A DNA stretch of 64,000 nucleotides from Flavobacteriales bacterium (GTDB lineage: Bacteria; Bacteroidota; Bacteroidia; UBA10329), in contig WGMW01000008.1 in the NCBI GenBank assembly GCA_016124845.1, positions 124,001 to 188,000 on the forward strand, given 5' to 3'. Below the pieces are notes generated by a model. That model was not told where the DNA came from. It did not search any database and saw only the letters and a list, made by a program, of their open reading frames with translations. Positions 7,314 to 28,575 of the stretch are shown here, piece by piece. The position numbers and the translations under genes were made by a program. Positions within the stretch are counted from its first letter, which is position 1, and each line of letters starts with the position of its first letter.

Positions 7314-8474
7314 TTAGTTGTGAAAGTAGTCTTTCATTTTGTCAAAGAAACTCTTTTCGCCCTTGGCGGGATCGGGTCTGAAGTTCTCCGAGTTCCGCAA
7401 CTGTTCAAGCATCGATTTCTCTTCTTTACTGAGTTTTTTCGGAATCCAAACATTGGTATGGACCAGAATATCGCCCTTTGTTCCGTAATCGAGGTCAGGC
7501 AACCCTTTTCCTCGCAGACGAAGTAGCTTTCCACTCTGCGTTCCTGCATCCACTTTGATTCGCGCTTTACCGTCAATGGTCGGAACTTCGGCTGTTGTTC
7601 CCAAAGCGGCATCAATAAAACTGATGTACAGTTCGTAGTGAAGATTGCTGCCATCGCGTTTCAGCAGTGGATGTTCCTCTTCTTCCACAAGAACGATCAG
7701 GTCTCCAGGAACGCCACCTTTTGCACCAGCATTTCCCTTGCCACGCACGGAAAGTTGCATCTCATTTCCGACACCTGCTGGAATTTTCACCTCGATGACC
7801 TCTTCGCCTTTCACAATTCCATCTCCGTAGCAAGCGGTACACTTGTGCGCAATCGTACTTCCTTGTCCGTTACACGATGGACAGGTTGATGACGTCTGCA
7901 TCTGACCCAAAGGCGTGTTCATCACACGCGTAACCTGACCGCGACCACCACATGTTTGACAGGTGCTCATTTGGCCGTCCTCGGCTCCCGTTCCGCTGCA
8001 CTTTTTACAGCTCACGTACTTGTTCACCTTCAATTTTTTGGTCACACCGTTGGCAACCTCATCCAAGGTCAATTTTACGCGCACGCGAAGATTGGAACCA
8101 CGGTGAACCCGCGTTCTGCGGCCACCGCCACCACCACCGAATCCGCCTCCGAAGTGCCCTCCAAAAATATCTCCGAACTGGCTAAAGATGTCGTCCATGG
8201 ACATGCCGCCTCCACCGAAGCCACCACCGAAACCACCACCCGCTGCGCCACCCATTCCGGCATGGCCGAACTGATCGTAGCGGGCTTTCTTGTCGGCATT
8301 GCTGAGCACTTCGTACGCCTCAGCAGCTTCCTTGAACTTTTCTTCTGCCTCTGTATCCCCCGGATTTTTATCTGGGTGATACTTCACAGCCATCTTCCGA
8401 TAGGCCTTTTTTATTTCTGCGGCATCGGCATTCTTGCCAACGCCCAACACTTCGTAATAATCTCTTTTCGCCAT
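7314..8474 (-). CDS. dnaJ: Chaperone protein DnaJ
   Basis: 386 residues, full-length type I Hsp40. J-domain with HPD (KYHPDKNPG near residue 31), Gly/Phe-rich linker (~70-115), and four zinc-finger CxxCxGxG motifs ([32 protein letters not shown]) between ~155 and 215, followed by the two substrate-binding beta domains. DnaJ stimulates DnaK ATPase activity in the cytoplasm. It lies 11 bases after grpE in the same operon; dnaK is elsewhere. Confidence 0.97.
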
Positions 8475-24697: not shown

Positions 24698-25729
24698 TCA
24701 ATCATTTTCCCATTTGGCCAAATAAGGGTCATAGGAACAGCGCAATGGTTTGGACAAGTCATCATCTACATCAGAAACAAATGCACGGCAATCAGTACAG
24801 ATATAGCGGAACTCACAATCCTTGCACACTAAAATTTGATCTTTGGTCATTTTCCCAAATCGTTTGAACTCCTCAATCTTGAGGATGGAGTCAAAGCGTG
24901 TAGAATGGGCATTCCCGAACGAATGCCCCATTGATGGGCAATTCTTAATATTTCCATGTACATCCACGGAAATTTTCCCATTCAAACAGGAGTTAAAGTG
25001 TTTTGCTTCTGAAAACAAATCTCTGTTGACCACAAATCCATCTGGATGAATAAATCCGCAATGGTCTGAAGATGTGATCCTATTTGTGATCTGGTAAACA
25101 GGACACTCTTCTCGTTCGTTTGATAGCAGTTGGTTTGAGTAAGCCGAATGAATGATGATCTTTACCAATGCTGGAAATTTCCGGGACAACACCCTTCCTA
25201 TTTGGGTGTTTTCATGACCAATGTTTGCAATTATCAATTCTACATCCGTAAATCCTTCACTCTGGGCATGACCAAGGATCGTTTCAATCTCTACGGTAGG
25301 AATCATCTCGAAAAAGCGCAATTGTAACGCTTGACAGTTTAGTTCCGATAACTGCTTTAGAATATATTCAAACGGATGTCGCGAATTGCTGTCCGAGTCT
25401 ATTATGGCATGAGTGACCGGGCTCGGTGATTCCCATTGAAATTGCATTTGGGGGAACACGCGACTTTCCTCCTCCGTACACCAAAAGCCGTATTCCCGGC
25501 TTTCCAAGACCTTCAGTTGCTCCAACAACTTTACTCCATTTGGCTTCTGAGAAATTCGTTGAATGTCATTAGAACTCAAAAACCTTCCGTCCGTTATTTC
25601 TTCGAACAATTCATTTGAGATAAACACATATTCGGAACGCTGGAGGTCGCAGACAATGGCGCGAACCGCACCCTTCACAGGAACGCAGCACGCGAACAAC
25701 CGGAACCCTTTCTGCACTTCATCCTTCAT
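24698..25729 (-). CDS. gwsS: Grasp-with-spasm system SPASM-domain peptide maturase (GwsS-like)
   Basis: 343 residues. The N-terminus (FRLFACCVPVKGAVRAIVCDL) and overall layout match the SPASM-only maturase of the Bacteroidota grasp-with-spasm RiPP system. A barrel-like central part (~90-240) lacks the CxxxCxxC radical-SAM cluster. The SPASM cysteines are present at the end: CLNG...NCPSMGH (~255-275) and CKDCEFRYICTDCRAF...RC (~305-332). It probably binds Fe-S clusters and helps modify or recognise a peptide together with the ATP-grasp ligase. It starts 11 bases inside the preceding small ORF, so translation is coupled. Last gene of the operon. Confidence 0.82.
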   Translation of the reverse strand: MKDEVQKGFRLFACCVPVKGAVRAIVCDLQRSEYVFISNELFEEITDGRFLSSNDIQRISQKPNGVKLLEQLKVLESREYGFWCTEEESRVFPQMQFQWESPSPVTHAIIDSDSNSRHPFEYILKQLSELNCQALQLRFFEMIPTVEIETILGHAQSEGFTDVELIIANIGHENTQIGRVLSRKFPALVKIIIHSAYSNQLLSNEREECPVYQITNRITSSDHCGFIHPDGFVVNRDLFSEAKHFNSCLNGKISVDVHGNIKNCPSMGHSFGNAHSTRFDSILKIEEFKRFGKMTKDQILVCKDCEFRYICTDCRAFVSDVDDDLSKPLRCSYDPYLAKWEND

Positions 25730-25943
25730 TGTTGAAGGGATTCCAATGCGTAAAATCCAATGTATTTGAGTACCTCCTGATAAATTGTCCTGTCAATTGA
25801 TTCCTTTTTCCTGAACTGTCACTTTCTATGGTTCGGAACACTGGTTCATCTTTCATGTCGACAGCAAATGAATAGAGCATGCAGTAGGAGACACTTGTCC
25901 TGTCTTGTCGTTCGCTCAATATCAATTCAAACTCAGGTATCAT
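25719..25943 (-). CDS. Small protein between the two RiPP maturases, possible precursor or partner
   Basis: 74 residues. The start overlaps the ATP-grasp stop by 4 bases (ATGA) and the end overlaps the SPASM gene by 11 bases, so it is translationally coupled to both and likely real. The first half (EFELILSERQDRTSVSYCM) looks like two beta strands. The second half has an acidic Ser/Thr-rich stretch (FRTIESDSSGKR) and ends in FTHWNPFNNEG. Graspetide precursors carry Thr/Ser/Lys acceptors with Asp/Glu donors, which this peptide has, but I do not recognise a repeated core. It could instead be an accessory recognition protein. Confidence 0.65.
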   Translation of the reverse strand: MIPEFELILSERQDRTSVSYCMLYSFAVDMKDEPVFRTIESDSSGKRNQLTGQFIRRYSNTLDFTHWNPFNNEG

Positions 25944-26926
25944 TCTCGGTCTATCAGATATTCTGCAATTGTCTTTTCAATCGGGAACTCACAATCTGTA
26001 CTTAAAGCATCAAACTGACCGATCGGGTTCACTTCCAAGAAGTAGTATTGGTCATCCTCAGACAGAACCATGTCTATCAGCCCGAAATTCAGGTTGAGAC
26101 CACCCATCAGGTTAAACAACTTTGCAGAAATGGTTTCCGGAAGCTCGAATGGTACAACCCTGTTCGGGAGTGAATGGTCATACTGCCTGAAATCCGTACG
26201 TGTCTTTGGATTATTCTGTGAGAAGATGGCACCACAGAAAATCCTGTTTCCAACAACACAGATTCTCAGATCCACTTTTTTCCGAACCTCTTGTTGGAAT
26301 AGAGACGGGCCAATGTGTTCCGGTAGATTCCCTATTGAATCCGCAGTTACTTTCAGAGTGGGGTGGGCATAATGCTTGTCATCTCGCTTGAAATTGAAAC
26401 TGTTGTAAATGGCCTTGCTTATCATGCCTTCATGGCATTCCTCAAAAAAGGATGCGATATCCTTCCGTGTGTTCAGTATGCGTGTTTCAGGTATGATTAG
26501 TTCAGCAGTTTTTGCTTTTTCAAGTACCATCAATTTGTTGGTCTCGTACCGAAACGGATTGCCCAAGTGTCGTTTGGTCATCAATAGTCCGTTTATCCAA
26601 CTATTTATGGATGTCCATTCCCATCGTAGAAAAGCTGTGGCAGACCTTCCGAGATCAGTATTCTCGAATTCAGTCTTAGATTGTTGTTCTACATCTACGA
26701 GATCTCCGCCACGGAACCATACTGAATGGATTTCAGATAATGTAACCTTTATATTACTGCTTTTAAGAACGATTTCTGAATACCTACCGGCAATGTTGGC
26801 GCTGCAAAATCTTAAATTCTTCTCAGCATGAAATGGTATTCTTACATGTTCAGCCCCAAAATGACTGAGCCAATCAATGACCTTGTTGGTGCTATGGTCA
26901 TACGGTTGGGATAGGAGAACTATCAA
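25940..26926 (-). CDS. gwsG: Grasp-with-spasm system ATP-grasp peptide maturase (GwsG-like)
   Basis: 328 residues of the MvdD/MdnC-like ATP-grasp ligase family: N-terminal VLLSQPYDHSTNKVIDW, SVWFRGGD near residue 70, an ATP-grasp core ~120-300 and the metal-binding FLEVNPIGQFDAL near 300, where family members have EVNPxGQ. These enzymes form ester or amide links between side chains of a ribosomal peptide (graspetides). The substrate would be encoded nearby. The gene is 40 bases after the 172-residue gene and 4-base overlapped with the 74-residue ORF. The region looks more A/T-rich than its flanks, by eye. Confidence 0.88.
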   Translation of the reverse strand: MIVLLSQPYDHSTNKVIDWLSHFGAEHVRIPFHAEKNLRFCSANIAGRYSEIVLKSSNIKVTLSEIHSVWFRGGDLVDVEQQSKTEFENTDLGRSATAFLRWEWTSINSWINGLLMTKRHLGNPFRYETNKLMVLEKAKTAELIIPETRILNTRKDIASFFEECHEGMISKAIYNSFNFKRDDKHYAHPTLKVTADSIGNLPEHIGPSLFQQEVRKKVDLRICVVGNRIFCGAIFSQNNPKTRTDFRQYDHSLPNRVVPFELPETISAKLFNLMGGLNLNFGLIDMVLSEDDQYYFLEVNPIGQFDALSTDCEFPIEKTIAEYLIDRE

Positions 26927-26966
26927 TGTGCTTATAGTGAGAATTCATTCCAATCACTAATTCCTA

Positions 26967-27485
26967 CTAATTATTTTTTGATTTGGAATAATCAATCCAA
27001 TCACCTCGATTCCAAATACTGCGTGAAGCCACTTTGCCAGATGTAAATGAGATTACCCTTCTAACTGTTCTCAGATTCTCATCCCAGTAAAACTCAATAT
27101 AAGTGCGATATGCCATAAACATGTTTTTTCCAAGATATGAGATGTCTCTAAACGTCACGCTTGTCCTAAACTCTTCAACTCTGACAAGCGTATCTATTCG
27201 GGCAGAGTGATGTTGAAAGTCGAGATTGGATATTGCTTTTTTAATGTCATCTATATTGGCAAACCTACTATTGATTAAGCGTGAAGTGTCCAACACGAAC
27301 AACATTAACGTTGAGTCCTCCATATTGCCATATATCAAAGCGTTATGAACTTTAAAGGCTTCTATCCTATGATCTTCAAATAATTCGCTGCTTCTGTAGA
27401 AATCAACCAAGTCATTGGGCTGGGTAAAACCTGCACAATTCAACATGAATACAAGTATTATGCAGGTTGAAATGTTCCTAATCAT
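26967..27485 (-). CDS. Unrecognised secreted protein in the RiPP operon
   Basis: 172 residues from ATG 27485, which overlaps the upstream stop by 8 bases; the frame is open to 27668 but that part lies inside the upstream gene. A signal peptide with lipobox-like end (IILVFMLNCAGF) suggests a lipoprotein or periplasmic protein. The rest is a mixed alpha/beta domain without a family I recognise (LMLFVLDTSRLINS, YRTYIEFYWDEN). Its place between the large C-terminally odd protein and the ATP-grasp gene suggests a part in the same pathway, for example handling of the exported product. Function unknown. Confidence 0.7.
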   Translation of the reverse strand: MIRNISTCIILVFMLNCAGFTQPNDLVDFYRSSELFEDHRIEAFKVHNALIYGNMEDSTLMLFVLDTSRLINSRFANIDDIKKAISNLDFQHHSARIDTLVRVEEFRTSVTFRDISYLGKNMFMAYRTYIEFYWDENLRTVRRVISFTSGKVASRSIWNRGDWIDYSKSKNN

Positions 27486-28383
27486 AGCCACAACCTGGTC
27501 CTTCAGTAGGAGGCGCGCCTTCGCCTGAAAAGGTTCTACACCAACCATGGGATGTGTAGAACCTTGTGTCACTTCCCTTGTTGGAAGTACCTTCAGTATG
27601 CCACTTGGTATTGGGTTTTCGTTCACGTCCGATAGGTCTTCCAATGTGTGACATGTCTCCCCCGCCAATCATCATTTCACTGCCTCCGCCATTACAATTA
27701 CATTCTTCTATTCGCACCGATGAACCCAAAATTCCAACATTCTTCGGCACCCACCCGAACACCACTTTTCCGGCAACCACAGCCAGACTGCCGATGAGGG
27801 CAGAAAGAAACACCAATGACGTGGACATGGAATCGGTCGCGTTGACCTGATAATAGTCGAACTGCGCCCCGAACATGGCCGCATCGACCCAATAGGGAAT
27901 GTTCGATGTGTCAATGGCCGAATTGGTGGTCAGATAAGGGCTCCAGGACCCGGATGTGGCGATCTGGTCTCCCCAATACTCCGCATCTGCCTCTCCAAGT
28001 GCCAATACCATCTGCAGACGGCCGGCATTGCCCTTGAGATGGGAGGCCGCCCCTGATGCATCGAACAGGCGGTCGAACTGATTGCCCAACGACACGGCCG
28101 GCACTCTCTGTAGGGAGCTGAGAAAGGGAGAAGAGCCCCCATTGTCGATATAGCCGTTGATGGCATTGGCGATGGAGGCACGTGTGGTATTCTCGCCTTC
28201 TGCGCTTGAAAGCTCCGTATAGACAGTTGACATGTAATCATATACGGCATCAATCAGATCATCAATGGTCACACTACCGGGACCTCCGGCACCGATGGAT
28301 GTGATGATGGCATCAAGCCCGTCCTTATGCTGCTGCGCCAAGGTGGCGTACGGGTTCACGTAATCTATCTTTGAATCGCTCAT
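27478..28383 (-). CDS. Unrecognised protein with Gly/Cys-rich C-terminal tail, first gene of the RiPP operon
   Basis: 301 residues from ATG 28383 (MSDSKIDYVNPYATL); codons upstream to 28461 run through a G9 tract and are excluded. Residues ~1-185 are a soluble, mostly helical domain with no family I know. A hydrophobic segment follows (LVFLSALIGSLAVVAGKVVFG, ~188-208). Then comes a tail of ~90 residues rich in Gly, Cys, Thr, Ser, Asp, Glu and Lys (EECNCNGGGSEMM; WHTEGTSNKGSDTRFY; GEGAPPTEGPGCGYD). The tail could be the substrate of the ATP-grasp ligase, making this an unusually long precursor, or it could be a structural surface protein. Coupled to the next gene by an 8-base overlap. Confidence 0.7.
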   Translation of the reverse strand: MSDSKIDYVNPYATLAQQHKDGLDAIITSIGAGGPGSVTIDDLIDAVYDYMSTVYTELSSAEGENTTRASIANAINGYIDNGGSSPFLSSLQRVPAVSLGNQFDRLFDASGAASHLKGNAGRLQMVLALGEADAEYWGDQIATSGSWSPYLTTNSAIDTSNIPYWVDAAMFGAQFDYYQVNATDSMSTSLVFLSALIGSLAVVAGKVVFGWVPKNVGILGSSVRIEECNCNGGGSEMMIGGGDMSHIGRPIGRERKPNTKWHTEGTSNKGSDTRFYTSHGWCRTFSGEGAPPTEGPGCGYD

Positions 28384-28441
28384 GGTTGTTTCTGTTTTGT
28401 TGAGTGAAGTTCGGGAAATATTTTTCGGAATTCCAACTTTC

Positions 28442-28450
28442 GGGGGGGGG
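28442..28450. repeat. G9 homopolymer tract upstream of the RiPP operon
   Basis: Nine consecutive G on the plus strand, 59-67 bases upstream of the ATG at 28383 and about 125 bases before the divergent atoE-like gene. Such tracts are prone to slippage and can change promoter spacing. Phase variation is a possibility, not shown. Confidence 0.8.
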
Positions 28451-28575
28451 TAAGTTTTCAACGATCAATCAACAGGTGGCTGTTCATTTCCTGTGATTCC
28501 CGAAAGACACAGAACTCTCTGCACAACGCCATCATTCGAAAATTCTCTGTGCAATAAACTCTGCATATTTGATGC

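Follow-up and report, generated by a model that had tools for sequence, protein, structure and literature searches.

A grasp-with-spasm operon of a Flavobacteriales bacterium with a giant putative precursor, and a portable N-terminal domain linked to three classes of RiPP maturase

A five-gene operon of a Flavobacteriales bacterium probably makes a grasp-with-spasm (gws)-type RiPP from a giant precursor, in which an N-terminal domain (NTD) of ~214 aa would act as a portable carrier fused ahead of a leader-core tail; we put the probability of this reading at about 75%. Its enzymes place the operon in the gws kind, of which its precursor makes it a variant. It lies at positions 24698 to 28383 of a 64,000-nt stretch (here, the window) of contig WGMW01000008.1 (GCA_016124845.1, positions 124,001 to 188,000), and the host genome of 4.36 Mb is 98.9% complete in 65 contigs. 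The NTD is a previously uncatalogued domain that is in no library searched, and some of its relatives stand beside RiPP enzymes of three classes.

The operon, its maturases, and its small partners

Five consecutive minus-strand genes encode a 301-aa putative precursor (27478..28383), a 172-aa, probably secreted protein (26967..27485), an ATP-grasp peptide maturase with a TTG start (25940..26926), a 74-aa protein (25719..25943), and a SPASM-domain peptide maturase without a radical SAM domain (24698..25729). The first two genes overlap by 8 nt (27478 to 27485), the ATP-grasp and 74-aa genes by 4 nt, and the 74-aa and SPASM genes by 11 nt, while a gap of ~40 nt separates the 172-aa gene from the ATP-grasp gene; a single expression unit is therefore very likely, as the original prediction had it. 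The G+C content is a mosaic—55% in the NTD, 47.5% in the tail, 36.6% in the 172-aa gene, and 42 to 43% in the maturases—against a window mean of 47.6% (standard deviation, 3.7). No RNA elements were found in the operon, and promoter and terminator scans gave no more matches than chance.

The identification of the two maturases from the letters alone was borne out, since the adjacent enzymes both exceed the curated cut-offs of the gws equivalog models (ATP-grasp, 244.2 bits versus 230 for TIGR04192; SPASM, 268.8 bits versus 175 for TIGR04193). Each is the sole above-cut-off copy in the genome. The ATP-grasp protein aligns with the solved graspetide ligases 5ig9, 5ig8, and CdnC (7mgv), FLEVNP motif included, and with this motif retained the predicted chemistry is probably the formation of omega-ester or omega-amide macrocycles in the core. 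The SPASM protein keeps its SPASM cluster cysteines and has neither a CX3CX2C motif, which is absent from all 37 family members checked for it, nor a Radical_SAM match; its sequence therefore does not make it a radical SAM enzyme in its own right.

We surveyed 36 gws loci, 33 without an NTD and three with one (the window, L101, and L102), and in most of them the gene immediately upstream of SPASM encodes a small protein. That position is nearly always held by a small auxiliary protein, either of the LPL family or unrelated to it (Makarova et al., PMC8939145). The 74-aa protein is a positional match to this slot, with no LPL motif seen and no family match, and is presumed to be a maturase helper. 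A Cluster 23/DUF6624-like companion is described in almost all branch 5 loci (PMC8939145); a crude motif test for it was negative in most of the gws loci surveyed. The 172-aa protein has a hydrophobic N terminus by hydropathy (a probable signal sequence), no Pfam or NCBIfam family match, and only a weak PHROG match. Unrelated small secreted-looking proteins occupy its place in L102 and on contig C55 of the same genome, which fits a cargo-specific partner, possibly one that confers immunity. Among the three partners originally listed as unrecognized, the precursor and the 74-aa gene can now be placed, which leaves the 172-aa protein unassigned.

No Peptidase_C39 was found near the operon, in agreement with the earlier remark that a peptidase-exporter is missing, nor was one found anywhere in the ~99%-complete genome. 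A C39 peptidase is present in 8 of 14 control genomes; the common GG/C39 route therefore seems unavailable to this host.

A probable giant precursor with an exchanged tail

The substrate of the operon is most likely the product of its first gene, the 301-aa protein (MSDSKIDY...GCGYD), a role that is well supported by comparison with a paralogue of different C terminus and with relatives in which the NTD is joined to cores of the gws, lanthipeptide, and rSAM types. Its NTD comprises residues 1 to 214 (27742..28383, minus strand), ending ...AGKVVFGWVPK, as delimited by the family alignment, the end of DNA similarity to the paralogue, and G+C content. The remaining 87 aa (27481..27741, minus strand) form a variable tail, putatively leader plus core, which has no similarity to the paralogue's tail and sits where relatives have their cores. 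Within it, the presumed modified core is the C-terminal ~57 aa (27481 to 27651, minus strand), with Thr/Ser/Lys, Glu/Asp, and Cys, from a boundary that we infer.

The paralogue, on contig C55, is 77% identical over residues 1 to 223 and has no similarity beyond them. The DNA match begins 79 nt ahead of the start codon and extends down to 27743, at the end of ...GKVVFGWVPK (blastn alignment of 28462 to 27743, 73.8% overall and higher nearest the start codon), and the tail swap is exact at the NTD junction. The constant front and exchanged back of the two proteins follow the pattern of RiPP precursors that join a conserved N-terminal part to differing cores. The paralogue carries a tail, with no maturase adjoining. 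The upstream region common to both genes (28384..28462, minus strand, by blastn), a putative 5′ untranslated region or promoter duplicated along with the NTD, is at least as well conserved between them as the coding part, which suggests shared regulation.

A leader model built from 20 gws precursors was run over 254 small open reading frames (ORFs) at 14 to 39 kb of the window; the best E value was 1.2, and no missed short GG-type precursor emerged. Nor is there a conventional GG precursor within ~10 kb of the operon. The 301-aa protein itself had no NCBIfam match up to E = 1, hence none to an NHLP or Nif11 leader model. Its tail has no recognizable gws leader, scoring no better than shuffles, so that the limits of leader and core within it are unsure; its resemblance to the L101 tail is faint (58 of 2000 shuffles as high). 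The original prediction of an operon with no recognizable precursor thus stands for short GG-type ORFs and fails for the first gene, which is itself the likely precursor. Likewise, its proposal of a graspetide-like pathway with a new type of substrate is supported as to an unusual substrate on a gws operon and wrong as to the missing precursor gene.

Relatives of the NTD beside three maturase classes

The NTD had no match in Pfam, NCBIfam, PHROGs, PADLOC, or PDB, and no description of such a domain was found in the parts of the literature covered by our search. PDB matches to the NTD profile were rejected as chance level. AlphaFold models of two sequences (pLDDT, 37) were too poor to give a usable structure; they suggest mainly helices. 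With the window's NTD alone, relatives were found in 5 of 98 other genomes (E values, 2e-15 to 2e-8). A profile search of 395 genomes from the class found them in 24, with E values that are biased because some of the matches trained the profile. A phylum-wide sample gave just one weak match outside the class, and a narrow profile scan of genome contigs gave a match in one genome (G155, locus L101). A viral or plasmid origin was rejected, as no relative was found in viral contigs or plasmids.

Seven of 17 strong NTD loci adjoin RiPP enzymes (eight counting the weaker L100). In other Bacteroidota, the NTD precedes putative gws tails, lanthipeptide leader-cores, and rSAM-type tails, three linked chemistries as judged by sequence. 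The gws linkage recurs in L101/L085 (NTD, ATP-grasp, 69 aa, SPASM; L101 is MAG CAMDBK010000163.1, labeled Chitinophaga pinensis) and in L102 (NTD, a secreted protein of 166 aa, ATP-grasp, 75 aa, SPASM), where gene order is as in the window. Relatives of the 301-aa protein thus adjoin gws maturases in both loci, and this part of the expected co-occurrence of the unrecognized partners with the maturases held; the 172-aa and 74-aa proteins have only positional equivalents there, with no recognizable homologues. L102 (6022 to 15255) also contains two NTD precursors that hardly differ from each other, as do their secreted partners; one copy precedes a SPASM remnant (7675 to 7965) and then a different gws set, an apparent tandem duplication with maturase replacement.

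Class I lanthipeptide linkage was found in L016, L086, and L100, each adjoining LanB and LanC (LanB model TIGR03891: 225 bits in L016, 196 in L100), with no C39 homologue found beside any of them. In all three, a putative leader motif comes directly after the NTD (KLNLNKETISIL, KLTLNKEAIARF, and KLALNIETVSSL) and is followed by a Cys-rich core. LanA leaders of Bacteroidetes are reported to carry an LxLxKx5L motif (PMC7268733), which is exact in L016 and has F in place of the last L in L086; the motif in L100 and L091 was recognized by eye only. Matches to the class I leader model NF038153 at residues 233 to 252 (16.3 bits in L016 and 16.2 in L086; E = 0.008 to 0.009) do not reach the curated cut-off of 22. 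The rSAM/SPASM linkage is seen in L088, whose tail (GGYSLA...CIVVNNCDGGNCNYGC) matches a neighboring small precursor (GGFSLA...CVISNNCRGANCGEGC; E = 2.5e-4) and whose maturase is closest to the RiPP families TIGR04463, CefB, and Clo7bot. We count L018 with reserve, because there is hardly any tail on its NTD protein and its rSAM protein matches YydG only weakly (63.6 bits versus a cut-off of 300).

Among the gws loci surveyed, a short GG precursor, scored by pattern, occurs in 28 of 33 without an NTD versus 0 of 3 with one (P = 0.008), and a C39 homologue in 17 of 33 versus 0 of 3, a difference that is not significant (P = 0.23). In maturase trees, the NTD-linked enzymes fall in different places rather than in one clade, which argues for repeated recruitment of the NTD; well-supported branches force at least two changes in the SPASM tree and at least three in the ATP-grasp tree. 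The L101 enzymes are sister to those of L111 (support, 100/99 and 99/96), which has a free 80-aa precursor beginning MKRIEKDTLKSQFRKFKSYG; the L101 segment after the NTD reads KNDTLLKDFQKFKSQG (Smith-Waterman score, 47; 2 of 2000 shuffles as high). The arrangement in L101 suggests that an NTD was placed ahead of a gws precursor that already existed.

In L111, L118, L121, and L124, four gws loci that lack a C39 homologue, 80- to 90-aa precursors without the usual leader are preceded by genes of a repeated family of ~260 aa (MAAETQYTANTGxVTISTANSNLDGTGTL...VKSIxVKAQ), for which no convincing family match was seen. When these loci were pooled with the NTD loci, C39 was found in 0 of 7 versus 17 of 29 (P = 0.008), a post hoc figure, as the pooled C39 tests were formed after the data had been inspected.

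The NTD is not RiPP specific, because many NTD genes stand alone without a tail or RiPP enzymes (L089, L090, L093, L019, L020, and L015). A second cassette recurs in L089, L090, and L093, where the standalone gene is followed by one for an unknown protein of 230 to 490 aa and one for a secreted protein with repeats (xDIWxxKLxxxGxxxWQKxxGG). Members of an fn3-containing family of ~210 aa adjoin standalone NTD genes in one genome (L019:5591-6223 and L020:4504-5148) and, in a different genome, a gws locus (L127:7164-7793). L017 (1540 to 4651) has NTD genes in tandem whose Cys-rich tails differ and which each precede a gene for a small membrane protein, with no RiPP enzyme nearby; a possible phospholipase-like tail there was dropped for want of Pfam support. 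The weak homologues L105 to L107 have signal-peptide or lipoprotein-like N termini, a hint of an extracytoplasmic role.

A proposed portable carrier, its alternatives, and known systems

We propose that the first gene would supply a probably helical NTD followed by an 87-aa leader/core tail. In this tail, Ser/Thr/Lys and Asp/Glu side chains are probably joined through ester or amide bonds by the ATP-grasp ligase, acting together with the SPASM protein and the 74-aa helper. The NTD would be a portable carrier, repeatedly recruited ahead of ready-made leader-core units, and would most likely replace the double-Gly/C39-peptidase route by serving in export, delivery, or anchoring of the cargo, which would be cleaved at some stage. 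The secreted 172-aa protein may be the cargo-specific partner in processing or self-protection. More tentatively, the NTD may be a new trafficking domain with RiPP payloads, so that finished ring-containing peptides leave as C-terminal cargo by a non-C39 route, joining RiPP chemistry to the logic of polymorphic effectors.

The NTD could instead be itself a very long leader, an analogue of Nif11 or proteusin leaders that the maturases recognize and that has no separate carrier role. It does lie N-terminal to the core, and long, structured leaders exist (proteusin, PMC10858898). We consider this unlikely, because the usual leader-like segment comes after the NTD in L016, L086, L088, and L101, and the enzyme families whose substrates lie behind an NTD (ATP-grasp, LanB, and rSAM/SPASM) differ in their recognition; a domain that serves unrelated enzymes and is followed by a normal leader-like segment is better read as a carrier than as an ordinary recognition leader. 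NTDs without a core or enzymes, and the signal-peptide or lipoprotein-like starts of L105 to L107, also speak against a leader.

The conserved N-domain with swapped C termini, the tandem genes of L017, and the different small secreted or membrane proteins after different tails (C55, L102, and L017) would suit a polymorphic effector, with the NTD in trafficking, a small toxin as the tail, immunity supplied by the secreted protein encoded next, and the maturases decorating the effector or merely adjoining. This too is improbable in our view: no Pfam toxin domain was recognized in any tail scanned, L102 keeps the five-gene order of the window, and linkage to three RiPP maturase classes recurs with matching leader/core motifs. 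Still less probable is that the 301-aa protein is an unrelated neighbor and the true precursor lies elsewhere in the genome. Precursors can be unlinked from their enzymes, and the window tail is without a recognizable gws leader, but the genes overlap, no conventional precursor lies at 14 to 39 kb of the window, and NTD-maturase linkage recurs across three gws loci, with maturases that do not group as a single clade. A gws-type RiPP with the NTD as portable carrier is the reading we prefer.

RiPP mining usually seeks short precursors adjoining maturases and passes over large ORFs. An NTD common to gws, lanthipeptide, and radical SAM clusters would expose precursors in "orphan" clusters and give a search handle for new ones. 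It also raises a testable question, namely, by which route such peptides exit a host whose genome yielded no C39 peptidase.

Long-leader RiPP precursors of the NHLP and Nif11 types were reportedly described by Haft et al. in 2010. Proteusin (NHLP) and Nif11 precursors likewise join a long conserved N-terminal part to several maturase classes; the NTD differs in having no library match, in being about twice as long or more (proteusin leaders are often 80 to 90 aa or longer, PMC10858898), in the separate ordinary leader motif that follows it in relatives, and in existing as standalone genes. Bacteroidetes gws graspetide clusters (ATP-grasp "branch 5," PMC8939145) have the same two maturases, order, and small SPASM-upstream protein. 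Their precursors are mostly small with a GG motif, whereas the operon described here has a 301-aa precursor with a ~214-aa domain and no model-recognized GG leader, no C39 exporter, and no DUF6624-like protein seen by the crude motif test. Compared with Bacteroidetes class I lanthipeptides (PMC7268733), L016, L086, and L100 have a leader motif of this kind and a Cys-rich core beside LanB/LanC but place an NTD ahead of the motif, with no C39 homologue found adjoining. Polymorphic toxin and effector systems share the constant N-domain, exchangeable C terminus, and variable downstream partner; in the NTD system, no toxin domain was recognized, and several tails instead resemble RiPP leader-cores beside maturases.
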